Made by a program: the position numbers and the translations under genes. Source: Lachnospiraceae bacterium (GTDB lineage: Bacteria; Bacillota; Clostridia; Lachnospirales; Lachnospiraceae). From it: a DNA stretch of 64,000 bases. The DNA is taken from contig JAQXGF010000045.1 in NCBI GenBank assembly GCA_029006155.1, forward strand, positions 1-64,000, in the 5' to 3' direction. Under the pieces are notes generated by a model, which did not search any database, was not told where the DNA came from, and was given only the letters and a program-made list of their open reading frames with translations. This document shows, in pieces, positions 1-14,318 of the stretch; position 1 is the stretch's first letter, and each line of letters opens with the position of its first letter.

Positions 1-713
1 ATCATGTCCTTGATATGGAATACGTCATTGGCAATCCAGTAGATGACATAGCCATCCGGATCACCATCCTCATTATAGTAAATCGCAGCCATGATGTCGT
101 CCGGATCCCAGAGCCAGTATTCGTTCCAGGCCAGCTCGTCCCGGATGATCGTGCCGTGCGTCCGCTTTGCAAACCGTTCGTAGGCTCTTTTCAGCTCCTC
201 GTCATCCGTACTGACCCGGCGCACGTCGCCACGTACCTGATGGTTCTTCGGCAGCTGATAGTCCTTGATCTCGTAGGAAATCTTATCGGAAATGATCTCC
301 CAGCCTTTCCGTCTGTAATAAGGAATGGAATACGGATACAGGTAGCAGATATACTGCCCGCGCTTCCGCATGTTTTTCAATGCCTGCTCCAGAAGCTTGT
401 GCATCAGTCCCATGTTCGTGTACTCCGGGTAGGTGCCGACACCGGTCAGACCTCCCATCGCATATTGCTGCCCGAAAATCCGCACCTGCATCGGATAGAC
501 GGCACACTGAGAAATGAGATTATCTCCATCGAACCAGCCGATGACGTCCGCTTTCTCCATCGTCGGAAATTTCGCCCGGATAATCTCCTTCTCCTGCCAT
601 CCGATCGCGCTCAACTCCTCATCGGTCACCTGAAACACATAGCGCAAAAGCGCGTTGTACTGTTCCATATATTCACTGCCTACTGAACGCATCTTCAGAT
701 TTTTCTTATTCAT
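1..713 (-). CDS. Eis-like GNAT N-acetyltransferase (C-terminus cut by window edge)
   Basis: The gene is open from an ATG at 713 to the window edge, so about 236 codons are visible and the C-terminus is missing. The start follows a good ribosome site (AGAGGAAGAAAGG, 5 bases before ATG). The protein has the N-terminal acetyl-CoA-binding fold of the Eis/enhanced-intracellular-survival type: GGLTGVGTYPEYTNMGLM matches the beta4/alpha3 pyrophosphate-binding region (about residues 78-95), followed by an aromatic stretch ICYLYPYSIPYYRRKGWE. Eis-type proteins carry two GNAT folds plus an SCP2-like tail, so much of the protein lies outside the window. They acetylate amines; the substrate here is unknown. 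Its own promoter abuts the island junction. The family call is fairly firm, the substrate is not. Confidence 0.8.
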   Translation of the reverse strand, partial: MNKKNLKMRSVGSEYMEQYNALLRYVFQVTDEELSAIGWQEKEIIRAKFPTMEKADVIGWFDGDNLISQCAVYPMQVRIFGQQYAMGGLTGVGTYPEYTNMGLMHKLLEQALKNMRKRGQYICYLYPYSIPYYRRKGWEIISDKISYEIKDYQLPKNHQVRGDVRRVSTDDEELKRAYERFAKRTHGTIIRDELAWNEYWLWDPDDIMAAIYYNEDGDPDGYVIYWIANDVFHIKDM

Positions 714-766
714 ATAAACCTTTCTTCCTCTCCCGGCAAATGCCCTTGTTGTTTCCTGTCGCATTG

Positions 767-795
767 ATTTTACCAGAGAAGTGAACAGATTACAA
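767..795 (-). promoter_or_regulatory. Probable sigma-A promoter of the acetyltransferase gene
   Basis: On the minus strand TTGTAA (790-795) and TAAAAT (767-772) are 17 bases apart, 54 bases upstream of the ATG at 713. The -35 hexamer overlaps the last three bases of the 26-bp island repeat (793-818), so this promoter straddles the island boundary. Confidence 0.5.
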
Positions 796-818
796 CATAT
801 CCTCTATAAAAATCCCAT
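793..818. repeat. Left 26-bp direct repeat of the island (att-like site)
   Basis: This stretch is identical over 26 bases to 8910-8935, in the same orientation, and the bases on either side differ. Read on the minus strand it encodes the end of SpoIVB (GIFIEDML) and is followed at once by a TAA stop. It therefore looks like the displaced original 3' end of spoIVB, left behind at the far edge of the inserted element. Confidence 0.85.
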
Positions 819-823
819 CTATC

Positions 824-2266
824 CTATTTCATTTTATCTGTCAGTATCCATTTACCTTTTCGATTAGAACCTTCACGGATAACTTTACCTTCATGCTGCA
901 TTTTCGTAAGAGTACGCTTAATCGTTGCCGCAGAAACCGCAAGTGCTTCTCCTAATGCTTTATGAGTCAGTTCCGGATTTTTACGAATCAATGCCGATAA
1001 TCGAGTTTCAAGGTCATCTTTGAGGTCATTATGGTCTTTATTGGGGTCATCGAGGTCATGATTTGAATTTTTGACCTCAATGACCTCATTCTGACCTCGA
1101 TAAAGATTAATTCTGAAAGCTACTTCCATGTCAATAAATTCCGGTTCGCGCAATCCATATTCCTGCATGGCTTGCATAAGTTTTGGTATACCGCTTCCCC
1201 AGGCTTCCACAAGATTCATATATACAAAAGCATTGGCGAGTGCACGATTTCGGATTTTTGAAAATCCTTCTTTCATCAAATCAATCGTTACCCCTGGGAG
1301 CAATCCACCTGGAGAAGTAATTTCCAGACGATCATCATAAAGTGCCACCTGAATATTAGAAACCTGGATGTAACTGCAATTCATAACTGCATTGACAATC
1401 AACTCTCGAATGCTATCCGGCGGCAGTTCATAAATATCTTGACGATATACACCTTCCAGTCGGCATCCCATCCGAATATTTCTAAGGACAAACTGTACTG
1501 CTTCATCTACCTGTTCCCACAGCGATCCTTCGTAATTGCGCCGATCAAGAAATACAGAACGGGTCGTTCCCTTAAACACAGCACATTGAATCATGGAACG
1601 CAGTCCACCTTGTCCGGTTAAATAAACATACGCATTCGTTGGATAAATCTTTTCATTTTCATCCCTCTTCAAAATCCCCCAACTGAGCAAAACATTTTTC
1701 GTTACATCTTTTACTGCTGACCGTTGAAGGTTTGACTTGCTGTTGGCAATGGCGACTTCTTTCATTTGCTCACAAAGATTCTCAATATCTTCATCAGTCA
1801 CTTCAATATCTCTGCGAATTACCGAATCAAAAGAACGAGCATCGCATTCATAATATAGTTCTCTTGACATATCACGATCAGCGGGGCGTGTCGTTCCAGA
1901 AACCCGAATATATACGCCATTCTCCAGACCATCTGCTTTAATATAGTATGGTTTCTGACGTCCTGCTCTGATTTCTGCAACAATTACAGGCTTATCATTT
2001 ATATTTTGCAAATAAACATCTGGAATGATCGTCGGCTCACAGCTATCCGAAATAGAATTGGTAATCGCATCAATTTCCTGAAAAACTTTATCCTCCGGAA
2101 CACCGACAACTTCTCTGGTTTTATCATCAATGCCAAATATAATTTGCCCTCCTTTTCCATTGGCAAAGGCAACGACCGTTTTCATGTATTTTATACTCTT
2201 GTCCGGGCGTTGCACCTTGAACTCTACATTCTTAGATTCTCCGGCAAGAATTTCTTCTATTGTCAT
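824..2266 (-). CDS. AlbA_2/Schlafen-type ATP-binding protein with C-terminal winged helix (COG2865-like)
   Basis: 480 residues, starting at an ATG with GGAGGTG five bases upstream; the eleven extra codons upstream include the ribosome site and are not coding. Residues about 3-120 match the AlbA_2 (Schlafen AlbA-like) domain, with ESKNVEFKVQRPDKS and a FANGKGGQIIFGIDD motif. Residues about 280-380 match the HATPase_c_4 module (ELIVNAVMNCSY, EITSPGGLLPG, EAWGSGIPKLMQAM). A charged linker rich in D/N/K (about 405-425) leads to a winged helix (LTHKALGEALAVSAATIKRTL). COG2865-type proteins are usually annotated as putative regulators or helicase-like, and often sit beside restriction systems; their function is not settled. 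Here it is the last gene before the left island boundary, 48 bases after hsdR. The linker DNA carries a palindromic motif array that may be its own operator. Confidence 0.85.
   Translation of the reverse strand: MTIEEILAGESKNVEFKVQRPDKSIKYMKTVVAFANGKGGQIIFGIDDKTREVVGVPEDKVFQEIDAITNSISDSCEPTIIPDVYLQNINDKPVIVAEIRAGRQKPYYIKADGLENGVYIRVSGTTRPADRDMSRELYYECDARSFDSVIRRDIEVTDEDIENLCEQMKEVAIANSKSNLQRSAVKDVTKNVLLSWGILKRDENEKIYPTNAYVYLTGQGGLRSMIQCAVFKGTTRSVFLDRRNYEGSLWEQVDEAVQFVLRNIRMGCRLEGVYRQDIYELPPDSIRELIVNAVMNCSYIQVSNIQVALYDDRLEITSPGGLLPGVTIDLMKEGFSKIRNRALANAFVYMNLVEAWGSGIPKLMQAMQEYGLREPEFIDMEVAFRINLYRGQNEVIEVKNSNHDLDDPNKDHNDLKDDLETRLSALIRKNPELTHKALGEALAVSAATIKRTLTKMQHEGKVIREGSNRKGKWILTDKMK
1010..1098. 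repeat. Array of inverted GAGGTCA motifs inside the AlbA_2 gene
   Basis: The plus strand shows AGGTCA (1011-1016), GAGGTCA (1022-1028), GGGGTCA (1043-1049) and GAGGTCA (1052-1058), then the inverse TGACCTC three times (1072-1078, 1081-1087, 1092-1098). The array is roughly symmetric about position 1065 and lies exactly over the non-conserved linker between the ATPase-like and winged-helix domains. That placement suggests a DNA-level role such as autoregulation, but this is inference. Confidence 0.6.
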
Positions 2267-2314
2267 GTAAACACCTCCATGATTAAGTTTTGCCAACAAT
2301 AAGTCGATTAACTC

Positions 2315-5300
2315 CTATTGTTTACCGTAGGGCACAGGTTCTTCTGCAACTTTGCTTAATTCTGGTTTTAATGAATATGTATACACCTTTGAAGATTTCT
2401 GCGATAATTCCATATCATTATTGTCCGTCCACAACTCACATTGCGTCATAACAGTCTGAACTGCATCATCCATACCTTCCGGTGGGTATCTGTGTTTTTT
2501 CAAAAGCCTTTTTATCATCATTCGCATCCTTGCTCTCGCAGAATCACGCTTTTGCCAGTCAATCGTCCTGTTTCTTCTAAGGGTGTCTGCAAGTTCTTTT
2601 GTAATAGCAATCAATTCTTCATTTTCATAAAAATCCTTAATTGCCTGTGGCTTTGTCAGTGCATCATAAAAAGCCAGCTCATCCGCAGTCAGCCCCAGCT
2701 GATCTCCTTCTTTATGAGCAGCTGCAATTTGTTTCGCAAGATTCAAAAGTTCTTCAATAACCTGCTCATTCGTCAGCATCCCATTCAAATAAGCATTCAT
2801 AGTTCTCTGAATAATTTCACTGAATTTTTCAGACTTCACGACATTGGTATGTCGATATATCTTAACCTGCTCAGCAATCAGTTTTTTCAGTAACTCCACT
2901 GCCAAGTTTTTCTCCTTCATTTTTGAAACTTCTTCAAGAAATTTCGGATCAAAAAGAGAAAACTTCTTGTCTATATCTGAAAAAAGATTGATAACACCAT
3001 CACTTTGTACACTTGCTTTCAAAAGATTGTTAATTCGGGCATTCATCTCCGGTAAAGAAATTTTCTTTCCTTCACCCTGATTCATCAGGCGGGTTACAAG
3101 AACCCGAACAGACTCAAAGAAAGCAGCTTCTACACGCAAATCACGTTCAGCTAAAGAAGCACAAAGAGAGAGTGCCTGCTTTAACAGCAATCCTTCTTTC
3201 AAAAATACTTCTCGGTCATCTGCTTTATCAACTGCCACAATAAAGTTTACAGCACCACTAATTGCCTTGGAGCGCTCTAAATCTGTTCCATTCATAAATT
3301 TTGAATAATCATATCCATGAAATAAATCCCGGCAAACAGATAATTTTTCAAGGAATTTTGGGTATGCTACCTTTGCAACATCTGTGTCACCATAGTTTTT
3401 CTTATCTCTGGCTGTGTAGTCATTCATTGCTTGTTTCAATGCTGCTGCAATGCCTACATAATCAACTACCAGACCGCCTTCTTTATCTCCAAATACCCGG
3501 TTTACTCTGGCAATCGCCTGCATCAAATTATACCCTTGCATCGGCTTATATATATACATGGTTGCCAACGACGGAACATCAAATCCCGTCAACCACATAT
3601 CAACCACAATCGCTATCTTCAAAGGGCTATCATTATCCTTAAACTGCTTTGCCAGTTCATCTTTATGCCGCTTATTCCCGATAATCTTATTCCATTCTTC
3701 TGGGTCTTTATTGCTGCCAGTCATTACAACAGCAATTTTTTCTGTCCAAGATGGGCGAAGTTGCAAAATGCGTTCATAAATTTTCATGGCAATCGGACGA
3801 GAATATGCCACAATCATTGCTTTTCCGGTAAGTAAATTTTCCCGATAATTCTCATAGTGATCCAGTATATCATCAACCAAAGAAGCAATGGTTTTATCAT
3901 TTCCAAGAATTGCTTCCATCTGTCCAAGCTGTTTTTTACTTTTCTCAATAACCTCCGGGTCCGCATTATTTGCCATAATGTCATATTCTTGGTCAATCAG
4001 TTTCAAAGTATGCTCATCCAGCTTTAATTTAATCACACGGCTTTCATAATAAACAGGTCTGGTTGCACCGTCCTCCACAGCCTGAGTCATGTCATAAATA
4101 TCTATGTAATCGCCAAATACTTCCCGTGTATTGCGATCTTTCATAGAAATCGGAGTTCCCGTAAATCCAATATAGGTTGCATTTGGCAGAGTATTACGAA
4201 TAATACGGGCAGTACCAATTTTAATTTCACCTGTCTTGGCATCGACCTTTTCTTTCAAACCATATTGTCCACGATGGGCTTCATCCGCCATAACAATAAT
4301 ATTTCTGCGTTCCGAAAGACATTCAAATGATTCTTCAAACTTCTGCATTGTAGTGAAAATAATACCATTGGCTTTTCTGTCATTTAACCAATCCATAAGA
4401 CCAATAATTGGCTTTTCACCTTTTCTCAGATGTGCATTATATTCTTTATCTTCATCAGACAATTTCCTCTTATCCGCATGGACAGGCTCCTGGCGTAAAA
4501 ATTTACTGCATTTTGCAAACTGTCCGTAAAGCTGATCATCTAAGTCATTACGGTCAGTAATTACAACGATTGTAGGACTATCCAATGCATCCTGCAAACA
4601 ATGAGCATAGAATACCATTGACAATGATTTTCCACTGCCTTGTGTATGCCAGAACACACCACCTTTACCATCTGTTTCTGTTGCGTGTTTTGTAGATAAA
4701 ATCGCTTTATTTACTGCAAAATACTGGTGATATCCTGCCAAGATTTTGACCTGCTTCGATCCTTCATTAGAAAAGCAGATAAAGTTCTTGATAATATCAA
4801 GGAAACGCTCTTTTTCAAACATTCCCTCAAAAAATGTATCAAATTGAGCATACTGTGTGTTTTCATAGTTTCCATCTTTGGTTTTCCATTCCATGAAGCG
4901 ATCTTCGCCAGACGTAATTGTACCTGCTTTAGAAGTTAAATGATCACTCATGACGCAGATACAATTATAAATAAACATGGATGGAATCTCGTGCATATAA
5001 TTTCTGATCTGTGTGTAGGCTTCGGATGCATCTGTTTCTTCCCGTGACGGTGACTTCAATTCTATAAGTACCACTGGCATACCATTCAAAAACAGCAATA
5101 TATCTGGACGCTTGTTGCTATTCTCTATAAATGTCCACTGATTCGCAACAACAAAAGAATTCTTGTCCGGATTTTTATAATCTACCAGATAAACCAGCCC
5201 TGAGCGCTCCTCACCTTTTACAAAATAGCGTACTTCAATTCCATGCTGAATATAATCCATAAAAAGAGCATTCTTCAAAACCAACTCTGCATTTTCAAAA

Positions 5301-5506
5301 TTCTTTAATTTATATAAAGCATCTGTAATCGCATCTTCAGGCATATCAGGGTTAATTCGCCGGATAGAATCGTCCAATTCTTCTTCATATAATGGACTGC
5401 GAAAATCTCTCTCCACATCCGGCGCATAAACATACTGATAACCCATATTTTGGAACAATTCTATGACTGATTTTTCGTAATCTGCTTCCGTATAAAAATC
5501 TGACAT
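2315..5506 (-). CDS. hsdR: Type I restriction endonuclease subunit R
   Basis: 1063 residues. The start ATG at 5506 has AGGAGG nine bases upstream; the ATG six codons earlier overlaps that ribosome site. The N-terminal nuclease domain shows the PD-(D/E)xK signature PDILLFLNGMPVVLIELKSP (about residues 135-155). The SF2 translocase follows: Walker A WHTQGSGKSLS (about 286), MADEAHRGQYG as the DEAH box (about 405), GFTGTP as motif III, and QAIARVNRVF as motif VI (about 680). The protein cuts unmodified DNA after ATP-driven translocation as part of the R2M2S complex. Length and motifs look complete. It is separated from hsdS by about 1 kb that contains the inverted hsdS segment. Confidence 0.97.
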   Translation of the reverse strand: MSDFYTEADYEKSVIELFQNMGYQYVYAPDVERDFRSPLYEEELDDSIRRINPDMPEDAITDALYKLKNFENAELVLKNALFMDYIQHGIEVRYFVKGEERSGLVYLVDYKNPDKNSFVVANQWTFIENSNKRPDILLFLNGMPVVLIELKSPSREETDASEAYTQIRNYMHEIPSMFIYNCICVMSDHLTSKAGTITSGEDRFMEWKTKDGNYENTQYAQFDTFFEGMFEKERFLDIIKNFICFSNEGSKQVKILAGYHQYFAVNKAILSTKHATETDGKGGVFWHTQGSGKSLSMVFYAHCLQDALDSPTIVVITDRNDLDDQLYGQFAKCSKFLRQEPVHADKRKLSDEDKEYNAHLRKGEKPIIGLMDWLNDRKANGIIFTTMQKFEESFECLSERRNIIVMADEAHRGQYGLKEKVDAKTGEIKIGTARIIRNTLPNATYIGFTGTPISMKDRNTREVFGDYIDIYDMTQAVEDGATRPVYYESRVIKLKLDEHTLKLIDQEYDIMANNADPEVIEKSKKQLGQMEAILGNDKTIASLVDDILDHYENYRENLLTGKAMIVAYSRPIAMKIYERILQLRPSWTEKIAVVMTGSNKDPEEWNKIIGNKRHKDELAKQFKDNDSPLKIAIVVDMWLTGFDVPSLATMYIYKPMQGYNLMQAIARVNRVFGDKEGGLVVDYVGIAAALKQAMNDYTARDKKNYGDTDVAKVAYPKFLEKLSVCRDLFHGYDYSKFMNGTDLERSKAISGAVNFIVAVDKADDREVFLKEGLLLKQALSLCASLAERDLRVEAAFFESVRVLVTRLMNQGEGKKISLPEMNARINNLLKASVQSDGVINLFSDIDKKFSLFDPKFLEEVSKMKEKNLAVELLKKLIAEQVKIYRHTNVVKSEKFSEIIQRTMNAYLNGMLTNEQVIEELLNLAKQIAAAHKEGDQLGLTADELAFYDALTKPQAIKDFYENEELIAITKELADTLRRNRTIDWQKRDSARARMRMMIKRLLKKHRYPPEGMDDAVQTVMTQCELWTDNNDMELSQKSSKVYTYSLKPELSKVAEEPVPYGKQ

Positions 5507-5520
5507 CTTTTGTCGCCTCC

Positions 5521-5697
5521 TCATATCAGTCTAAGCTGCTTTTTCATCTGTTTTTCTATATGAGCCTGTGCCACTGCATCGTATAAACACACAATCATTT
5601 GCAATCTGAGGTGTGCTTTCTCTTTTCGCTGATAGCCGCATATAGCTATCTTTGCAAAGAAAAAATAAGCCCCGTTACCAACATATATGCTTTTAAT
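5521..5697 (-). other. Start-less open frame upstream of hsdR, possible gene remnant
   Basis: Between TAG (5698-5700) and TGA (5521-5523) on the minus strand, 58 codons are open and read plausibly as protein, ending AQAHIEKQMKKQLRLI. There is no ATG near the beginning, and the stop lies just ahead of the hsdR ribosome site. I do not recognise the family. It could be the C-terminal stump of a gene deleted between hsdS and hsdR, or chance. Confidence 0.3.
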
Positions 5698-5702
5698 CTA
5701 TG

Positions 5703-5740
5703 ATCAAATAAGTGTTGCTTATTGCTAAGTCTTATTTGAT
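5703..5740. repeat. 10-bp inverted repeat
   Basis: ATCAAATAAG (5703-5712) and CTTATTTGAT (5731-5740) are perfect inverse copies separated by 18 bases. No T-run follows on either strand that would make it a clear terminator. It lies about 100 bp outside the invertible hsdS segment and could be a protein-binding site. Confidence 0.45.
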
Positions 5741-5831
5741 AAACAGACAAGACCAAGCCAGTACAACTGTTAAAGCGGTGAGTATAGACCACCATTTCAG
5801 TCTCTTAGCACATAATATTTCCCCTTTACAA

Positions 5832-6512
5832 ATGTTAAACAAGAATTTACTTCAGCAGGCAATGGCAATTTTTAATAATGTACTAGAACATTCAACGTCT
5901 GTTACTCATGTTGAGTTAGGATCATTGGCTGATGTCAAAGGTGGAAAAAGACTTCCTAAGGGAAAGAATTTGATAGCTGTACCTAATTCACACCCTTATA
6001 TTCGTGTTCGAGACCTCAATGATGTCGTATTTGCCAGTCTTTCAGCAAATTACGAGTACGTTGATGATGAAACTCAGAAGACAATTTCACGTTATATTAC
6101 GACAACTGATGATGTCTTGATATCTATTGTTGGAACAATTGGATTAACAGCAATTGTAGATAAATCATTGAACAAGGCAAATTTAACGGAGAATTGCGTT
6201 AAGGTCACAAACCTGCATGGTATTTCTCCTGAATATCTTCTTTTATATCTTCGCTCTCAACATGGATCTGAAGAAATTAAAAAAGGCACTGTTGGAGCTG
6301 TTCAAGCAAAATTACCAATTAAAAATATTCAGGCGATCAGTGTTCCAGTGCTGCCACAATCCGAATTGCAGTCATTAAATGATACATTAAAAGCACTTTT
6401 TAACCAGCTCTCCATTAATGTTGCAGAATCCAAGTGTTTAGCAGATATTCGAGATTCATTATTACCAAAGCTAATGTCTGGTGAATTGGATGTCTCCAAC
6501 ATCGACTTCTAA
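5832..6512 (+). pseudogene. hsdS: Inverted, silent 3' half of hsdS (second target-recognition domain)
   Basis: The frame encodes NKNLLQQAMAIFNN, the usual end of the HsdS central helical spacer, then a complete second target-recognition domain, then the C-terminal conserved helix ending LADIRDSLLPKLMSGELDV. It lacks the first recognition domain and has no ribosome site before its ATG, so it is probably not translated as it stands. It is on the opposite strand from hsdM, hsdS and hsdR. Its first codons contain one copy of the 15-bp inverted repeat (5836-5850). The reading phase across that repeat matches hsdS on the minus strand, so inverting 5836-6615 would fuse 220 codons from here to the 5' half of hsdS. 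Its stop overlaps the stop of the minus-strand hsdS by a few bases. Confidence 0.85.
5836..5850. repeat. 15-bp inverted repeat, outer copy of the hsdS switch
   Basis: TAAACAAGAATTTAC on the plus strand. Its exact inverse is at 6601-6615, and the flanking bases differ on both sides. It falls in the codons for the conserved N-K-N-L of the HsdS central spacer. Confidence 0.85.
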
Positions 6513-7132
6513 GCCGCCCATAGACTCGAAAACGCCTGCGGCGTTTCCTCGTTACCGCCGCCATACAGTTTTACTATTTGTTCAAGCCTGTGAAGCGGCG
6601 GTAAATTCTTGTTTATCCTATCATTCAGTACAATTTTATCATCAATCAACTTTAGAAATGAACCTATTTTTTCTTGTTCAGCTAACGGTGGAACCTTAAT
6701 TTCAAGATTCTTTACCACATCTGTCTGAACACGCTGCCGTCCAGATGAACCAACCATAGATTTTATTGCCGAATCTCTTACCTCTGGACTGCAAACAAGA
6801 TAGAACAAGTAATCCTTATCAGCAATTCCTTCTTTTGCTCGAAACACAATATATTCAGTAGAGCCAAAGCCAACTTCTCCATCATTTAAGATTAAAACTT
6901 GAGCCGTTTTTCCATTTTCCAAGCAAGGCGTAATTCTCGCCATAATTGTATCGCCATTGCGAAATTTCGTGCCACCAGAAAAACTTTCTTCAGTATAATA
7001 CGGAACATCTCTGCAAAATGGTCTGAGTACATCCATAGAAATTTTCTTGGCAATAGTCCCCTTTTTTATGGTTTCTCTTGGATTAAAATCCGCAATGTCA
7101 GAAAGTTTCTTTTTTATCCATTCAGATTTCAT
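6509..7132 (-). CDS. hsdS: Type I restriction specificity subunit, 5' half only in this orientation
   Basis: 207 residues from an ATG at 7132 that overlaps the hsdM stop by 11 bases. Residues 1-150 form one target-recognition domain; EKIGSFLKLIDDKIVLNDRINKNL (about 154-177) is the start of the central conserved spacer. After that the sequence leaves the family and ends in an unrelated 30-residue tail (PPLHRLEQIVKLYGG and onward). Complete HsdS proteins are about 400 residues with two recognition domains, so this is half a subunit. The break falls exactly at the 15-bp inverted repeat (6601-6615). Inverting 5836-6615 joins residue 177 in frame to the stored 3' half, giving a 397-residue HsdS. 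As it stands the product might be inactive, or act as a half-subunit dimer with altered specificity. Confidence 0.9.
   Translation of the reverse strand: MKSEWIKKKLSDIADFNPRETIKKGTIAKKISMDVLRPFCRDVPYYTEESFSGGTKFRNGDTIMARITPCLENGKTAQVLILNDGEVGFGSTEYIVFRAKEGIADKDYLFYLVCSPEVRDSAIKSMVGSSGRQRVQTDVVKNLEIKVPPLAEQEKIGSFLKLIDDKIVLNDRINKNLPPLHRLEQIVKLYGGGNEETPQAFSSLWAA
6601..6615. repeat. 15-bp inverted repeat, inner copy of the hsdS switch
   Basis: GTAAATTCTTGTTTA on the plus strand, the exact inverse of 5836-5850. It is inside hsdS, in the codons for I-N-K-N-L of the central spacer, and is in the same reading phase as the other copy. Confidence 0.85.
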
Positions 7133-8630
7133 ATCCAATCGCCCCCAGTTTCTTTCTGATCTCATTCTCCAGCTCATGAGATTTTGCAAACATTTCTGAA
7201 AGTTCAGATGTAAGACGAGTCATTTTTTCTTCAAATGGTTCTCCATCATCTTCCTGCTCCTCAATGCCTACATATCGTCCCGGTGTGAGAATATAATCTT
7301 GTTTTTCAATTTCCTGAATATCCGCTACCTTGCAAAATCCGAGAATATCTTCCTGTGTACCATTTTGGAATGCTTCAAAAGTATCAGCCAGTTTTTGAAT
7401 ATCCTCATCCGTAAAATCACGATGTTTCCGATCAACCATGTGTCCCATTTTGCGGGCATCAATAAACAGTGTTTTTCCTTTTTGCTTTTTACCTTTGGTA
7501 ATAAACCACAACGTCACCGGAATTGTTACACTATAAAACAGCTGCGTCGGCATCGCAATAATTCCTTCAATCAAATCGTCCTCTATAATTTTTTTACGAA
7601 TTTCTCCCTCGCCACTGGACTGTGTAGAAAGTGCGCCATTTGCAAGAACAAGACCGATTTTTCCATTCGGTGCAAGATGATGAATCATGTGCTGAATCCA
7701 GGCATAGTTAGCATTACCAGCAGGCGGAAGTCCATATTTCCAACGCTTATCCTCCAGCAGTTTGTCTTGTCCCCATGGATGATAGTTGAAAGGTGGATTT
7801 GCTAAAATAAAATCTGCTTTTAATGTCGGGTGTAAATCACTTGTAAAAGTGTCTGCGTTATACGGACCAAGGTCTGCATCAATACCACGAATTGCCATAT
7901 TCATTTTTGCCATTTTCCAAGTATCTGGGTTGGCTTCCTGACCATAAACAGAAATGGCACCTCTTTTATGACTGTGTGCTTCAATAAACTTCTCACTCTG
8001 CACAAACATACCGCCAGAACCACAGCAACAATCGTATACTCGACAGTTATCAAATGGTCGAAGGATGGAAACCAATGTTTTTACAACACTGGATGGCGTA
8101 TAGAATTCTCCACCGCCAACACCTTCTTTTTCAGCAAACTGAGCAATACAATACTCATAGGTACGTCCAAGAAGATCTTCACTTGCTTCTGTATCGCTCA
8201 TATCAATATTATTTGTGAAGATGTCAACCACATCACCTAAAATTCTTTTATCCAAATCTGGACTTGCATAATTTTTCGGGAGTACATTCTTTAATTTCTT
8301 ATTTTCTGATTCTATCGCTCTCATTGCATTATCAATGATTGTTCCAATTTCCGGTGTATGTGCCTTAGATGCAATATTATTCCAGCGTGCATCTTCTGGG
8401 ACAAAAAATACATTGTCCATTTCATAAGCATCACGATCATCTTCAAAACCATCGCCCTCATCAACGAGTTCTTTGTAACGCTTATCAAATGCTGCTGAAA
8501 TATAACGAAGGAAAATCAATCCTATGATTACTTTTCTATATTCTGCCGCCGGGATATGTCCCCACAAAACACAGGCTGCATCCCAAAGCTGTTTTTCAAA
8601 TCCAATATTGGCGTTTGTCTTTTCTGCCAT
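7122..8630 (-). CDS. hsdM: Type I DNA (adenine-N6) methyltransferase subunit M
   Basis: 502 residues, starting at the ATG at 8630 with GGAGG eight bases upstream; an ATG five codons earlier overlaps that site. An N-terminal helical HsdM_N region (about 10-150) precedes the N6_Mtase domain. YDCCCGSGGMF is the S-adenosylmethionine motif I (about residue 200), and ILANPPF is the catalytic NPPF motif IV (about 280). With HsdS it forms the methylase and with HsdR the full restriction complex. A near-consensus promoter lies 50-77 bases upstream and is probably the main promoter of the island's restriction operon. Confidence 0.97.
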   Translation of the reverse strand: MAEKTNANIGFEKQLWDAACVLWGHIPAAEYRKVIIGLIFLRYISAAFDKRYKELVDEGDGFEDDRDAYEMDNVFFVPEDARWNNIASKAHTPEIGTIIDNAMRAIESENKKLKNVLPKNYASPDLDKRILGDVVDIFTNNIDMSDTEASEDLLGRTYEYCIAQFAEKEGVGGGEFYTPSSVVKTLVSILRPFDNCRVYDCCCGSGGMFVQSEKFIEAHSHKRGAISVYGQEANPDTWKMAKMNMAIRGIDADLGPYNADTFTSDLHPTLKADFILANPPFNYHPWGQDKLLEDKRWKYGLPPAGNANYAWIQHMIHHLAPNGKIGLVLANGALSTQSSGEGEIRKKIIEDDLIEGIIAMPTQLFYSVTIPVTLWFITKGKKQKGKTLFIDARKMGHMVDRKHRDFTDEDIQKLADTFEAFQNGTQEDILGFCKVADIQEIEKQDYILTPGRYVGIEEQEDDGEPFEEKMTRLTSELSEMFAKSHELENEIRKKLGAIGYEI

Positions 8631-8679
8631 TATAATATCCTCCATATCACATTGCCGCTAACTTCTTTCTCTAATATTC

Positions 8680-8707
8680 ATTATAACCTTCGAACTTTTC
8701 TTGTCAA
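8680..8707 (-). promoter_or_regulatory. Strong sigma-A promoter of hsdM
   Basis: TTGACA (8702-8707) and TATAAT (8680-8685) on the minus strand are both exact consensus hexamers, with a 16-base spacer, just upstream of hsdM. The minus-strand interval up to the island's right repeat holds nothing else I can support. Confidence 0.75.
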
Positions 8708-8894
8708 TCTGCCGCCATTGTGAATATGTCTGCTCTATCCAGAGTAAAGAATATATTAGGCAATCTCCGTGGTGAAGAGCTAAATAGAACTGCCCTCCTA
8801 ATTGTATTTTACTGCATAAATAAACAGAGAACAGCAAAACGATTCTGAACAAATATATCATAAAAACCTGATATCTGTCAGAATCGCTTCATTT

Positions 8895-10265
8895 TCAATC
8901 ATCTGTTTTCAACATATCCTCTATAAAAATCCCATACCCTTTCTTCGGATCGTTCACAAATACATGCGTCACGGCTCCGATGAGCTTTCCTCCCTGAATG
9001 ATCGGGCTGCCGCTCATGCCCTGTACGATGCCGCCCGTCTTTGCGAGAAGCGCTTCATCTGTGACTTCCAGGACGATGCCTTTGTTGATGTCCCCTCCGG
9101 TGCGGCGCACCTCTTTGAGTTCCACATCATAAGCCTCGCAGCGCTCACCGATCGTGCAGAGAATTTGAGCCGGGCCGGTCGTCACAGACTGACGGTAAGC
9201 GACCTCGTACTGATCCATTTTATCTGCCAGAAGGGAAAATCCGGAGATCGTCCCGTAAATGCCATTCGGATTGTTTTCTTCTATGACGCCGATCTTGTAA
9301 CCCTCGCTGTAGTGGATCACACCCGCCAGTTCCCCCGGCGCGCCCTCCTGTCCCCGCACGACAGAAACAACGTCCGCATCGTATAAGGTGCCGCCATCGA
9401 TCGCGAGAATTGTTCCGGTATCAATATCACTGATCCCATGTCCCAGTGCACCAAATTGTCCCTCTTCATCCACATACGTCAGCGTCCCAATGCCCTGTGT
9501 ATCATTCCGCACCCAGACGCCTGCCCGGTAAGCACCGGATTCATCGAGCACCGGCACAACGCTGCATTCCAGCAGTTCACCGTCCCGCTCTACCTGCAGC
9601 TGTACCGATTTGCCGCCACTTTTTCCGAGACATTCGATCAGCTCTTCCTTCGTCTCAAGCGCTCTTCCGTCTGCCATCTTGATGTAGTCTCCGGCCTGCA
9701 GCACCGCTCCGGCCGGGCAGCACAGCTCGCCACTCTTCGCGTGGATCGCATCGGTCCCGACGACGAGCACACCGGCCGTGCGCAGATACATCCCGATCGG
9801 TGTCCCACCCGCATAGACCATCTTCGGCGTGGCGACACACGCCTGCACCGTCTTCAGTGGAATTTTGCCAAACAGAGTATATTCGATTTCATAAAACTTG
9901 TCACCTGCGCTTTTTCCGTCCGCATAGCCATCACTGGCTGCTTCACCTGCGGCGGCCTCCACGACTGCTCCGTTTTTACCGTTTTTTACTACCTGTTCTG
10001 CCTGTGTCTGGTCATCTCCTGCTTCTGATTTCCTTGCTGTTGTCGCATCCGTCTTTTTCCGGTCTGGCTTTTCTCCTGCTACCTCACCTGAAATCCACTG
10101 ATCTACCGGTTCCGGAAACAATTCCGGAACCTCTCCGTAGCCGGATACCGTCATCCGGTCGGGAATCCGGCTGCAAAGCAGATGCCACACTGCAAATCCA
10201 AGTAAGCAGATACCAGATACCAGCAGGCAGCACACAAAACATCGGTACTTTCGTCTGATATTCAT
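8895..10265 (-). CDS. spoIVB: SpoIVB serine peptidase (sigma-K checkpoint)
   Basis: 456 residues with an N-terminal membrane anchor (about 8-30), a variable linker rich in A/E/K (about 60-120), a PDZ domain (about 145-235) and the S55 peptidase domain. The likely catalytic histidine is in GALGHGISD (about 273) and the serine in GMSGSPIIQGG (about 418). In Bacillus the secreted enzyme signals from the forespore to activate pro-sigma-K processing by cleaving SpoIVFA. Its last codons lie within and beyond the right 26-bp repeat of the island, so the C-terminal KTDD appears to be supplied by the inserted element. It is the last gene of a long minus-strand run after recN. Confidence 0.95.
   Translation of the reverse strand: MNIRRKYRCFVCCLLVSGICLLGFAVWHLLCSRIPDRMTVSGYGEVPELFPEPVDQWISGEVAGEKPDRKKTDATTARKSEAGDDQTQAEQVVKNGKNGAVVEAAAGEAASDGYADGKSAGDKFYEIEYTLFGKIPLKTVQACVATPKMVYAGGTPIGMYLRTAGVLVVGTDAIHAKSGELCCPAGAVLQAGDYIKMADGRALETKEELIECLGKSGGKSVQLQVERDGELLECSVVPVLDESGAYRAGVWVRNDTQGIGTLTYVDEEGQFGALGHGISDIDTGTILAIDGGTLYDADVVSVVRGQEGAPGELAGVIHYSEGYKIGVIEENNPNGIYGTISGFSLLADKMDQYEVAYRQSVTTGPAQILCTIGERCEAYDVELKEVRRTGGDINKGIVLEVTDEALLAKTGGIVQGMSGSPIIQGGKLIGAVTHVFVNDPKKGYGIFIEDMLKTDD
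8910..8935. repeat. Right 26-bp direct repeat of the island (att-like site)
   Basis: Identical over 26 bases to 793-818. On the minus strand it encodes the last conserved residues of SpoIVB (GIFIEDML). The downstream bases then differ from the left copy: AAAACAGATGATTGA here, TAA at the left junction. Confidence 0.85.
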
Positions 10266-10421
10266 CCTTGGTTCCTCACATTTCTGAATGTTATGGTCTT
10301 TCTTTTTTCCTGTCAGTTTTTTGCCTCTGCATTCAGTATGTGAGTTTTTACAGATCCCAAACTGGGAAATTTTTCATTAAAAACTGTGCAAACAGTTTCC
10401 CATTCACACAGTCCATCTTTT

Positions 10422-12110
10422 TCAATCTTCTTTTTCTTTCGCCCGCGCTGCCAGTTCTTTCATCTCCCGCGCGCTCTCCAGCACGGTCTCGGTGATCTTT
10501 GCACCGCCGAGGATACGCGCCAGCTCATGGATACTCTCATCCGGATCGAGCAGTCCGATGTTCGTCACCGTCTTGCTGTTTGCCGGTTTCTTTTCTATAA
10601 TATAATGCCGGTCCGCCATCGCCGCGATCTGTGCCAGATGCGTAATGCACAGCACCTGATGATTCCGCGCGATGACTGCCATCTTCTCTGAGACTTTTTG
10701 CGCCGTCCGCCCGCTGATTCCGGTATCGATCTCATCAAAGATCAAAGTCTCGACCGCATCCTTGTCCGCCATGACCGCCTTGATCGCGAGCATAATACGC
10801 GACAGCTCTCCGCCAGAAGCCACGCTCGCGAGCGGACGCATCGGAAGCCCCGGATTTGTCGAGATCATGAAGCAGATCTCATCCTTTCCATTTTCCGTCG
10901 GCTCTTCAAGTTCCTCAAATACGATCTCGAACCGCACATCAAGAAAATTCAGGTCGACGAGTGCGGTGCGGATCTTCTCTGAGAGAATTCCCGCATACTG
11001 CTTCCGAATCCCGGAAATCTCCTCCGACAGACGGGAAAATTCCTTCTGGCTGCTCTCATAATCCCGCTGCAGCCGTTCCAGATAGGAATCATAGTCATTC
11101 AAAATATCAATACGCGCCTGCTTTGCCTTCGCATAGTCCAGAATCTCCGGAATGGACTGCCCGTACTTCGTCTTAAGCCGGTTGATGAGATCGAGCCGTT
11201 CCTCGGTCTCGCGCATCTGCTGCTCATCGAAACTGAAGCTGTCCGTGTACTCCGCAAGGCTGCGGTTAAAGTCATCGAGCAACGTCTCGATCTCTTCCAG
11301 CGAGCCGGACAGCTCGGAAAGCGACGGATCATACGCCTGCACCGCGCCGAGGCAGCGCACGGCGCGGCCAATCTCATCACCCGCCCCGGAATAGCCGTTC
11401 GCCCCGGTCAGGCTGCCTGCCTCAGAGAGCGCCTCCATGATCTTCTGCCCGTTCGCCATCATCCGATAAGACGCCTCCAGCTCCTCATCCTCGCCCGGAC
11501 GCAGATGCGCCGCCTCGATCTCCTGCACTTCAAACTGCAGAAAATCAAGCTCTTTGGCCCGGCTTCCGGCATCAGAAGCTGCATCCGCCCACTGCCGCTT
11601 TGCCTGCATGTATTTCCGGTGCAGCCTGCGGCACTTCGCGAGCCGGTCTCCGAGCTCTGCGCGTGCGAAATTATCGAGAATGCCAAGATGATTTTTCTCA
11701 TAGAGCAGCGACTGGTGCTCATGCTGCCCGTGAATATCGATCAGATCACCTGCGAGCTCGCGCACAAAGGAGACCGGCACTGTCTCACCATTGATCTTGC
11801 TCGACGCCCGCCCCCCTTTGTATTTCCGCGTAATGATGATCTCGTGATCCTCAAACGGCAGATCCTGCTTCTGCAGCTTCTCCTCTACCTTTGGATTCTC
11901 CGTGCGGAACACAAGCTCCACGAGCGCATAGTCTGCATCCTCCGGTACATAATCCTTAAAATTACCGGTCCCGAGTGCAATGTTCACGGAACCGATCACA
12001 ATTGACTTTCCGGCACCGGTCTCTCCGGTCATGATGTTCAGTCCTTCTCCGAACTCGACCTCGACCTCCTTGATCAGCGCCATATTTTTTACATGTAAAC
12101 TGACTAACAT
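10422..12110 (-). CDS. recN: DNA repair protein RecN
   Basis: 562 residues, the normal RecN length. It is an SMC-like ATPase: Walker A GETGAGKSIVIGS (about 29-41), a long central coiled coil (about 150-370) and a C-terminal head with the ABC signature VASGGELSRIMLA and Walker B TLIFDEIDTGISG. RecN acts in double-strand-break repair by holding DNA ends. GGAGG lies four bases before the ATG. It sits between argR and spoIVB on the same strand, the usual clostridial order. A 156-bp gap to spoIVB contains a 7-bp stem (AAACTGT/ACAGTTT), so spoIVB may also have its own sporulation promoter there. Confidence 0.97.
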   Translation of the reverse strand: MLVSLHVKNMALIKEVEVEFGEGLNIMTGETGAGKSIVIGSVNIALGTGNFKDYVPEDADYALVELVFRTENPKVEEKLQKQDLPFEDHEIIITRKYKGGRASSKINGETVPVSFVRELAGDLIDIHGQHEHQSLLYEKNHLGILDNFARAELGDRLAKCRRLHRKYMQAKRQWADAASDAGSRAKELDFLQFEVQEIEAAHLRPGEDEELEASYRMMANGQKIMEALSEAGSLTGANGYSGAGDEIGRAVRCLGAVQAYDPSLSELSGSLEEIETLLDDFNRSLAEYTDSFSFDEQQMRETEERLDLINRLKTKYGQSIPEILDYAKAKQARIDILNDYDSYLERLQRDYESSQKEFSRLSEEISGIRKQYAGILSEKIRTALVDLNFLDVRFEIVFEELEEPTENGKDEICFMISTNPGLPMRPLASVASGGELSRIMLAIKAVMADKDAVETLIFDEIDTGISGRTAQKVSEKMAVIARNHQVLCITHLAQIAAMADRHYIIEKKPANSKTVTNIGLLDPDESIHELARILGGAKITETVLESAREMKELAARAKEKED

Positions 12111-12144
12111 CTGTCCTCCGTACTCTCTCCCACGAAGTATACTG

Positions 12145-12600
12145 TTACTTTCTCCCCACGACCCGGCTGATCTTATCCATCACGCGCAGGGTATCATCCA
12201 CGCTGCGCACCGCACACATGATCGTATCATCCCCTGCGATACAGCCTGCCACCTCGGACCAGTGCATCGCATCGATCGCAGCTGCCACCGCCATCGCCAT
12301 GCCAGACACGGTCTTGATCACCAGAATGTTCTGGGCCATGTCCATGGATAAAAAGCCATCCTTCAGGACTCTGAGATATTTTTCATTCATCCCGGTCTGC
12401 TGCGGCTGCATCAGCGCATACTTCTGCCGCCCGTCATTCGTCGCGATCTTGGTCAGCTTCAACTCACGGATATCACGGGAAATCGTCGCCTGTGTCACAC
12501 GATATCCCTCTCTTTTGAGCTGCTCCGCAAGCTCCTCCTGCGTCTCGATGTCATATTTCCCAATCAGATCCACAATCTTGGCATGTCTTCCGATTTTCAT
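12145..12600 (-). CDS. argR: Arginine repressor
   Basis: 151 residues, full length. The N-terminal winged helix includes TQEELAEQLKREGYRVTQATISRDIRELKLTK, with the SRDI recognition-helix motif typical of ArgR. The C-terminal oligomerisation/arginine-binding domain contains SEVAGCIAGDDTIMCA, the GDDT loop that contacts arginine. It represses arginine biosynthesis and can activate catabolism. It is 34 bases upstream of recN, a placement conserved in Firmicutes. No arginine genes occur in this window. Confidence 0.97.
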   Translation of the reverse strand: MKIGRHAKIVDLIGKYDIETQEELAEQLKREGYRVTQATISRDIRELKLTKIATNDGRQKYALMQPQQTGMNEKYLRVLKDGFLSMDMAQNILVIKTVSGMAMAVAAAIDAMHWSEVAGCIAGDDTIMCAVRSVDDTLRVMDKISRVVGRK

Positions 12601-12627
12601 CTTCGCTTCACTCCTCTTCCAGTTCCC

Positions 12628-13488
12628 CTACCTGCTCATTTTTTCGCGAAGAATCTCAAGAAAACTCGTATTCTTCGTCTTGATCATCAGCGCCTCACGG
12701 CTTGACCGGCGGATGACCACGCGATCCCCGGCGTTTAATTTAACCGAAGTATCCCCGTCAAAGGTCGCCTCCGCGCCGTCGATGTCCGTCCCGTGGCTCG
12801 TCCCGATCTCGATCGCGATCTCTACATCATCCGGCAGTACGATCGGCCGGGAATTCAACGTATGCGGCGCGATCGCCGTCAACAGCATCAAAGATGCCTC
12901 CGGCGCGACGATCGGACCTCCCACGGACAGATTGTACCCGGTCGATCCGGTCGGTGTCGAGATGATGATGCCATCCGCCGTGAACGAGCTCAGAAATGCC
13001 CCGTCGACGTAGACGTTGAAGTCTACGACGCGCAGCCGCCCGTTCCGCGTGATGACGATATCATTCAATGCGATGTCTGCCAGCATTTTCCGGCTCTGAT
13101 GACAGGCACTTCCGCAGATCATCATCCGATGCTCGATGCTGTACTCCCCCGCGATCAGCTTTTCGAGCGCCGGACGGATGCTTTTGCGGTCGATTTCCGC
13201 GAGATATCCAAGGGTACCCATATTGATGCCGAGCAGTGGAAGCTGCCGGTCCACCAGATCTCTGGCCGCCTGCAGCAACGTGCCGTCACCCCCGATGACG
13301 AGCACACACTCGACTCCGTCCGGCACCTGGGAGGCGTCTGTATATTTATAGGCACCTCCATTTCCGCCCGGCTCGTTTGACTGAATGTAGCAGGTCTTTC
13401 CCTTTTTCTCCAGATACCGCTGAATCGCCTGCGCCGTCTCCAGCTCCGGATCCTTCTGATAATTCGTAATAATATAAAATGTATCCAT
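12628..13488 (-). CDS. nadK: NAD(+) kinase
   Basis: 286 residues. It has the invariant GGDGT motif (LVIGGDGTLLQAARD, about residue 65), the substrate-binding NDIVITR region (about 140) and the glycine-rich TPTGSTGYNLSVGGP (about 175). It phosphorylates NAD to NADP in the cytoplasm. It is 27 bases from argR and 9 bases from the end of tlyA, which supports co-transcription. Confidence 0.96.
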   Translation of the reverse strand: MDTFYIITNYQKDPELETAQAIQRYLEKKGKTCYIQSNEPGGNGGAYKYTDASQVPDGVECVLVIGGDGTLLQAARDLVDRQLPLLGINMGTLGYLAEIDRKSIRPALEKLIAGEYSIEHRMMICGSACHQSRKMLADIALNDIVITRNGRLRVVDFNVYVDGAFLSSFTADGIIISTPTGSTGYNLSVGGPIVAPEASLMLLTAIAPHTLNSRPIVLPDDVEIAIEIGTSHGTDIDGAEATFDGDTSVKLNAGDRVVIRRSSREALMIKTKNTSFLEILREKMSR

Positions 13489-13497
13489 GACCGATCC

Positions 13498-14307
13498 TTA
13501 TTTATCCAACGTGCCGTGCGCCTGTGCGACTACCTCCTGCACATTCCCCGCAAACGGCTCTACCGACGCTGCATCCGGCTTTTTCAGAAGGTGCAGCAGA
13601 TACTCGATATTTCCCTCCGGCCCTTTGATCGGGGAAAATTCCAGCTCCCGGCTCTCAAGCCCGATCGTCGCTGCAAAATCAATCACCTTCTCAATGACCT
13701 CCTCATGCACCTTCGGGTCACGCACGACGCCCTTCTTGCCGACCTTTTCCCGGCCCGCCTCAAACTGCGGCTTGATCAGGCAGACGATCTCACCGTCCTC
13801 CGTCATCAGATTCCGCACCGGCGGCAGCACCTTCGTCAGAGAAATAAAGGAAACGTCGATCGAGACAAAGGCGGCCGGCTCCTCGATCTGCTCCGGTGTC
13901 ACATAGCGGATGTTCGTCTTTTCCATGCAGACGACGCGCGGATCATTGCGCAGCTTCCAGTCGAGCTGCCCGTGTCCGACGTCCACCGAATAGACTTTTA
14001 CCGCACCATTTTGCAGCATACAGTCGGTAAATCCGCCCGTCGAAGCTCCGACATCCATGCATACCTTTCCGGCAAGCGTCAGGTCAAAATGGCTCATTGC
14101 CTTTTCCAGCTTAAGTCCGCCGCGGCTCACATATTTCAGCTGACCGCCTTTTACAGTGATCTCCGCCTTCACATCAATCATCGTCCCGGCCTTGTCCTCA
14201 CGCTGTCCGTTGACCAGTACATTTCCGGACATAATAATTGCTTTTGCTTTCTCCCTCGAAGCCGCCAGCCCCTGACTGACCAGAAGGACATCCAATCGTT
14301 CTTTCAT
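13498..14307 (-). CDS. tlyA: TlyA-family rRNA 2'-O-methyltransferase
   Basis: 269 residues. An N-terminal S4 RNA-binding domain (about 1-60; RLDVLLVSQGLAASREKAK) is followed by a FtsJ-like methyltransferase domain with the AdoMet motif DVGASTGGFTDCML (about 85-98) and KPQFEAGREKVGKKGVVRD. In mycobacteria TlyA 2'-O-methylates 16S and 23S rRNA and is required for capreomycin sensitivity; a haemolysin role was an early label. AAGGAG lies six bases before the ATG. It lies between dxs and nadK, as in most Clostridia. Confidence 0.94.
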   Translation of the reverse strand: MKERLDVLLVSQGLAASREKAKAIIMSGNVLVNGQREDKAGTMIDVKAEITVKGGQLKYVSRGGLKLEKAMSHFDLTLAGKVCMDVGASTGGFTDCMLQNGAVKVYSVDVGHGQLDWKLRNDPRVVCMEKTNIRYVTPEQIEEPAAFVSIDVSFISLTKVLPPVRNLMTEDGEIVCLIKPQFEAGREKVGKKGVVRDPKVHEEVIEKVIDFAATIGLESRELEFSPIKGPEGNIEYLLHLLKKPDAASVEPFAGNVQEVVAQAHGTLDK

Positions 14308-14318
14308 CCAAAACTCCT

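Follow-up and report, generated by a model that had tools for sequence, protein, structure and literature searches.

The closest described counterparts of the locus analysed here are hsdS genes whose parts are exchanged by recombination. For SpnD39III/cod-ivr of Streptococcus pneumoniae, with its recombinase PsrA, and for the loci surveyed by Atack et al. (2020), the published accounts describe a 15-bp inverted repeat, a tyrosine recombinase and exchange of TRDs (PMC7096588, PMC7394358, PMC4948785), features shared with the family considered below. The hsdS of SpnD39III/cod-ivr is duplicated, whereas the present locus has one hsdS and no recombinase, and a flip between its two sites would toggle between a full and a half S subunit. 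In tvr/SpnIV of S. pneumoniae the recombinase is described as driving the excision of recombinase and TRD segments, and the shortened hsdM, hsdR, hsdS locus remaining after loss of the circle was detected by PCR (PMC6265443). tvr uses direct repeats, whereas the sites of the present family alternate in orientation, and a residue can be split. The hsd locus of Listeria monocytogenes ST8 is similar in having hsdR, hsdM, two hsdS genes, an integrase and hsdS inversions (as described in PMC4783014), but its repeats have other sequences and its two hsdS genes are oppositely oriented, unlike the arrangement found here. Inverton group 145 of hCom2 (Firmicutes_A and Bacteroidota) is described as comprising invertons that overlap genes for restriction subunit S, close to tyrosine recombinases (PMC11892184); the likeness is one of description. 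Within the limits of the literature searched, no description of a two-site, recombinase-less split hsdS was found.

The window is the whole stretch of 64,000 nucleotides that was analysed. It belongs to a 3.32-Mb assembly (G000; 150 contigs, 89.74% complete), in which the type I locus is located on contig C45. The genes hsdM, hsdS and hsdR lie together with their family domains, in the order hsdM (minus), half hsdS (minus), inverted half hsdS (plus) and hsdR (minus). The features are as follows.

2315..5524, minus strand: hsdR, 1069 aa, intact open frame (Pfam SWI2_SNF2, HSDR_N, T1RH-like_C)
5703..5740: hairpin-like repeat ATCAAATAAG...CTTATTTGAT, within the gap of 311 bp that precedes hsdR
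5832..6512, plus strand: inverted half hsdS with TRD2 and the C-terminal conserved region; 226 aa when read from the ATG at 5832 (Methylase_S)
5836..6615: segment that, once inverted, would again encode a complete HsdS of 397 aa (in-silico inversion)
5837..5849, plus strand: outer recombination site AAACAAGAATTTA, inverted relative to the inner site, with the identical core CAAGA
6512..6601, minus strand: 90-bp cassette between the site and the end of S, read as the 30-aa tail PPLHRLEQIVKLYGGGNEETPQAFSSLWAA of the half S
6602..6614, minus strand: inner recombination site AAACAAGAATTTA, where hsdS encodes NKNL
6509..7132, minus strand: half hsdS of 207 aa, in which TRD1 and the central conserved region are followed by a foreign tail (Methylase_S, translation)
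7122..8645, minus strand: hsdM, 507 aa, intact open frame (Pfam N6_Mtase, E = 4.4e-108; HsdM_N)

The minus-strand half S starts with the ATG at 7132, overlapping the end of hsdM, and its CR1 motif stops at the site. Both halves match Methylase_S in Pfam (E = 1.5e-16 for the minus and 7.1e-13 for the plus half); by sequence, the first half is nearest to the solved S subunits 1yf2, 5ybb and 3okg, and the second to 7vru. As the locus stands there is no full bipartite S, only the 207-aa half S behind hsdM. There is no second hsdS at the locus, which has one gene in two pieces, and the remaining Methylase_S matches of the genome fall on contig C27. There, at 58000-72000, a second hsdS locus with an hsdM-like gene (by eye) has two hsdS genes in opposite orientations flanking a 269-aa tyrosine recombinase, with 105-nt arms that are 91% complementary. 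Around the hairpin-like repeat, 5676-5738 and 5693-5740 match the gaps between the S and R genes of loci L080 and L097 at 83% (blastn), and a search of Rfam at gathering cut-offs over 1-16000 of the window gave no match.

The first-pass annotation described hsdS as split by a perfect 15-bp inverted repeat, and this is what is found. The arms TAAACAAGAATTTAC at 5836-5850 (plus) and 6601-6615 (minus) are 100% complementary, lie 750 nt apart and occur nowhere else in the 3.32-Mb assembly. Inverted repeats inside hsdS are a feature that the locus shares with shuffling type I loci. The repeat is unlikely to have arisen by chance; perfect inverted repeats of at least 15 bp at a spacing of 300-4500 occurred in 4 of 1000 dinucleotide shuffles of 5524-7132, and in 11 of 300 such shuffles of 2315-8645. 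The minus half loses its resemblance to S at the repeat, as the annotation had it, and continues into the 30-aa foreign tail. Scripted inversion of 5836-6615 reproduced the predicted single protein of 397 aa, in phase. Residues 6-396 of this product share 45% identity (E = 3e-115) with an HsdS of 410 aa from a relative in the same genus. The inverted half thus belongs to one S family with the other half, and membership in a different hsdS family, which the first-pass annotation had named as a refutation, is not what is found. The claim that the plus half has no start holds in part: an in-frame ATG is present at 5832, two codons ahead of the AAC codon of the site, but no Shine-Dalgarno sequence is seen before it by eye.

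The locus was compared with its relatives in a survey of 84 loci, comprising the window, 80 hsdM relatives (the best 80 of 445 stretches confirmed as relatives, with HsdM 83-95% identical) and three same-genus relatives found by DNA search (L037 in genome G035, L038 in G040 and L036 in G046). In these loci a 13-bp core site, AAAC[G/A]A[T/G]AATTTA, is located where the central conserved region of hsdS encodes INxNL, with a second copy inverted directly behind the hsdS stop. Sites on both strands are present in 51 loci, and in 48 of these all the sites of the locus share one 5-nt core, compared with a mean of 5.4 and a maximum of 16 loci in 10,000 shuffles. The exceptions are L070, L095 and L118. 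The agreement extends to all 13 both-strand-site loci that have hsdR and no local recombinase. The core type nevertheless changes at least 17 times on the HsdM tree of the 51 loci (shuffle mean 30), and because the cores agree despite these shifts, the sites of a locus tend to change together. Joint change of this kind is the behaviour expected of recombination partners. Shared coding for NKNL does not explain the likeness of the two arms: the outer arm encodes nothing where it follows a whole S gene, and the arms have locus-specific cores in common. Recombination between two site flavours with like flanks received little support; same-flank extension was barely greater within loci than between them (3.0 versus 2.3 and 7.85 versus 4.67 nt). 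In L095 the sites at 514, 1186, 3848 and 4529 past hsdM have cores CGATT, CGATT, CGATA and CGATA, and adjacent sites share a core (1 with 2, 3 with 4), as if site 1 had exchanged with site 2. Many recombinase-bearing loci have variants of a hairpin, CTCTCGCCGTTGGTGAGAG, beside a site (L040, L043, L047, L051, L054, L060, L066, L080, L102, L114 and others), which is possibly an attenuator or a terminator.

Neither a recombinase nor hsdR falls within the sequence compared in 35 of the 84 loci, and these open loci were left outside the recombinase count. In 32 of the 49 loci that can be judged, a XerA-like tyrosine recombinase is encoded downstream of hsdM (that of L038 matches NF040815 with E = 4.2e-71), and the other 17 have hsdR without a recombinase. 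The recombinase gene has the orientation of hsdM in 31 of 33 gene matches. Adjoining the recombinase within the shufflon of L038, at 9173-9819, are MntA-like and HepT-like genes scoring below the curated cut-offs, a pair reminiscent of the Phd/Doc homologues of pneumococcal tvr.

In 21 of the 84 loci, two hsdS genes are accompanied by four sites. Starting from hsdM the plan is TRD1a, site 1, TRD2, site 2 and the recombinase region, and then TRD1b, site 3, TRD2, site 4 and hsdR. L055 was excluded from scoring as it has Ns in its first hsdS. Every one of the 20 scorable loci has a single whole S gene beside a split one, either gene being the whole one in 10, and which of the two is whole changes at least seven times on a quick HsdM tree. 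The lone flipping of an adjacent pair of sites is thus not the usual event. A single divided gene, in place of a complete gene accompanied by a spare, had been taken as distinctive of the window locus; one S is likewise split in each of the 20 four-site loci, and this claim falls. Outside the 20, the three-site loci L040, L059, L066 and L104 obey the one-whole-S rule as far as can be seen, while L070 (with a recombinase frame of 169 aa and mixed cores) and L118 (mixed cores) break it. L046, whose second S has no TRD2, and L082, with two forward sites and no local recombinase, were left unscored.

Direct evidence of REARRANGEMENT comes from plasmid loci of the same family, 12 of which were examined outside the 84-locus survey. 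In Lactococcus, pJM2A and pUC073A are arranged X-forward ... Y-inverted, pUCCL627F is Y-forward ... X-inverted and pJM1A is X-inverted ... X-forward. Pieces of more than 600 bp are 98-100% identical between these four plasmids, and the breaks fall at the sites. A 663-bp TRD2 block, X, is present between sites 1 and 2 in opposite orientations in pJM2A and pJM1A with 100% identity. This is a flip of the sort put forward in the first-pass annotation, but it is accompanied by a change at the second hsdS. Rearrangement in the family is therefore real, as near-identical plasmids carry one block both ways between the same sites. Both orientations are known in this way from plasmid relatives of the window locus, which is itself represented by a single genome of its species. 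Pure excision and reintegration was considered as the origin of the one-whole-S rule and is insufficient, because the difference between pJM2A and pUCCL627F requires inversions. The rule is not absolute; in L179, on a plasmid of Ligilactobacillus (L.) salivarius BNS11, both hsdS genes are split and no S is whole, with a full-length recombinase annotated. One whole and one split S, judged by sites or annotated genes, are found in L173-L177 save for the exceptions noted, L180 and L182, while in L172 and L178 the S is full and a recombinase is absent, and L181 and L183 are arranged otherwise. The same HsdM accession occurs on two further L. salivarius plasmids, pR1, which has a recombinase, and ZLp4b, for which none is annotated in the interval from hsdM to hsdR.

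The 17 loci with hsdR and no local recombinase comprise seven full two-site loci (L037, L053, L086, L091, L099, L100 and L109), four split two-site loci (the window, L036, L039 and L083), L113 and five others. Comparison with recombinase-bearing loci locates what differs. The match of L053 to L051 extends through site 2, breaks off and is taken up again at site 4 (1156 versus 3478, 89-93% identity). For L099 and L109 the match is to L104 as far as site 2 of that locus, and thereafter to L102 or L098, beginning one base ahead of site 4. L037 matches L038 (HsdM 99%) to the end of site 1 and resumes at the S C-terminus, and the match of L100 to L117 ends at site 1 and returns only at hsdR. L076 versus L078, and the window versus L055, match outside the S region only, besides short pieces. 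Among the six recombinase-less loci other than the window, both breakpoints are thus at sites in L053, L099 and L109, and not in L037, L076 and L100. No close four-site sister of the window locus was found among the compared loci. The footprints of L053, L099 and L109 would be the expected product of exchange between directly repeated sites, although integration of a circle leaves the same. Presence of the recombinase changes 14 times on the HsdM tree, a scattered pattern close to the mean of 14.3 in 200 shuffles, and the full or split state is distributed nearly at random (13 changes versus 15.9, with 15 of 200 shuffles as low). The two-site loci could be ancestors instead, as the circle footprint is identical and the tree gives no direction.

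The best explanation, to which we assign a probability of about 0.6, is that the window locus represents a tyrosine-recombinase hsdS shufflon in a form with two sites and no recombinase, in split orientation, probably locked, with a half S that may dimerise. Comparison of the loci suggests that the XerA-like recombinase would act at the 13-bp core site in the INxNL codons and at the inverted copy behind the stop. Exchanges between sites would swap TRD2 blocks between the two hsdS genes, and an exchange at directly repeated sites would remove the recombinase and the second hsdS. The residue would consist of hsdM, hsdS, one outer site and hsdR, with TRD2 either forward, giving a full HsdS, or backward, giving a half HsdS. 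The window locus matches the backward product. Origin in the recombinase shufflon family is well supported; the window copy itself probably arose in this way.

Contig C45 has no match to Phage_integrase in a profile search. No member of the 329-aa recombinase family is found at E<=1e-25 in the G000 assembly, where the best match has 24% identity, nor in G035, which is 97% complete and has its locus in the full orientation. The window locus is therefore probably locked in the split state, although the family recombinase could be absent from the assembly only, as G000 is 89.74% complete. The alternative is that the locus is an active two-state switch, in which 5836-6615 is flipped, so that full and half HsdS alternate, by a recombinase that either acts in trans or lies in the tenth of the genome missing from the assembly. 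The in-phase 397-aa product and the identical cores in both arms would suit such a switch, as would the flipping of TRD2 blocks in relatives (pJM2A versus pJM1A), though there the second hsdS changes too, and the cores of L095, which match by adjacent pair as adjacent exchange would give. Full two-site loci also exist (7 of the 17), and a member of the recombinase family is encoded elsewhere in 6 of 19 genomes with recombinase-less loci, in three of them at 60-67% identity. In the flanks (about 1.5 kb, loosened pattern) of nine recombinases located elsewhere, an inverted site pair with core TGATA is found in L159, one loose match in L160 and no site in the remaining seven. The failure to find the recombinase in G000 and in G035 argues against the switch, and the 20 of 20 loci with one whole S counter independent flipping of an adjacent pair. 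Published statements on the pneumococcus point both ways: spnIII recombination independent of known site-specific recombinases is reported in PMC6620402, whereas in PMC7096588 inversion at the 15-bp IR1 is stated to be strictly PsrA-dependent. On this balance an active switch is unlikely. The comparison supports the repeat as a recombination site of a kind already known, and of the two states in the first-pass annotation, full and half HsdS, each does occur among related loci; what was not borne out is the window locus itself as a working switch between them.

Selection has acted on both halves. The S halves of the window and of L036, which is also split, have 90% protein identity, and dN/dS between them is 0.08 for TRD1 (bootstrap 0.04-0.12) and 0.16 for TRD2 (0.09-0.29). 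Purifying selection on the inverted half is a further point in favour of an active switch; the value of 0.16 implies that the block has been in use, and so a lock would need to be recent or the block used otherwise. There is, however, a step in identity at the site, from 85% nt on the TRD1 side to 90.5% in TRD2, which suggests that the TRD2 block was exchanged after TRD1 had diverged. Selection on TRD2 is then weaker as an argument against a lock, and is no argument for switching today. A search for the TRD2 family of the window found it in 4 of 396 genomes besides the window (E<=1e-20) at 29-36% identity, too distant to compare orientation.

Use of the inverted block in its present position would be possible if the two halves were expressed as separate convergent genes and assembled into one bipartite S, in a fixed split state. 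The dN/dS of the plus half is in keeping with this, as is an in-frame start two codons before the AAC codon of the site in the window (ATG), L036 (ATG) and L039 (GTG). None of these three starts is preceded by a Shine-Dalgarno sequence by eye, however, and that of L036 is about 26 bp from the divergent hsdR frame. Over all loci, upstream in-frame starts are not richer at inverted halves (13 of 38, versus 14 of 37 stop-side sites); starts within two codons are commoner at inverted halves, 7 versus 1, in a post hoc count. We regard assembly from separate halves as improbable. Slightly more improbable still is a dead locus, in which modification and restriction were lost through the split and the genes left behind are in decay. 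Truncated pneumococcal hsdS alleles are reported to have no methylation signal (PMC4948785), and the N-terminal half of Staphylococcus (S.) xylosus HsdS alone is reported to give no modification (PMC10030836), as expected of such a locus. Against it, the frames of hsdM, hsdR and both S halves are open, L036 and L039 retain open frames while split, and both halves are under selection.

In L036, window-like S halves lie beside a distant hsdM (73% to the nearest in the set); a 325-aa gene that looks PIN-like by eye is situated between hsdM and the half S, at 10008-10985. L113 combines hsdM with a half-S frame of 181 aa, two sites separated by 77 bp and an hsdR frame of 1054 aa. Since it keeps a half S with open hsdM and hsdR frames, a half-S-only locus can persist. 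The sites of L113 have the variant core CAACA, and the region covers 52 bases before to 1400 past the end of hsdM; on reading the sequences, a nucleotidyltransferase-like and HEPN-like gene pair is seen between hsdM and the half S.

The half S of other loci usually ends two codons past the site (NLAA*), whereas that of the window runs 30 aa further, through the 90-bp cassette. This cassette, CCGCCG...GGCGGCT with variable ends, is present in four species, in the window, L082, L116 and L041 (there partial, at a contig end), and is missing as an alignment gap in L036. It is not a genomic repeat, being single copy in G000 with weak matches in 9 of 46 other genomes of the genus. Nor does the tail appear to be a selected peptide; 13-15 of 30 aa are identical and the differences are spread about evenly over codon positions (12/11/9, 15/8/13, 12/7/12).

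Returning to the locked two-site residue, the cell would make HsdM, HsdR and the 207-aa half HsdS, a dimer of which may give symmetric specificity. This is plausible by analogy with NgoAV and EcoDXXI deltaC, described as having one-TRD S subunits and symmetric recognition (PMC3874165, PMC10030836), and is at odds with the silent truncated alleles of the pneumococcus (PMC4948785). The half S of those systems arises by truncation or deletion, whereas that of the window would result from an inverted segment. Tentatively, the shufflon may freeze itself, as excision would delete its own recombinase and leave either a full or a half S fixed, with the half-S homodimer reading a symmetric sequence. 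Under this somewhat speculative reading the window, L036, L039 and L113 would be candidates for stable half-S end states in gut Clostridia.

Split hsdS genes in genomes and MAGs are readily taken for switches or for pseudogenes. The 13-bp site with its locus-specific core, in the CR1 codons and behind the stop, provides a sequence rule that separates shuffling loci from recombinase-less residues. The family also offers natural half-S loci with open hsdM and hsdR frames in which symmetric recognition by a half S may be studied.
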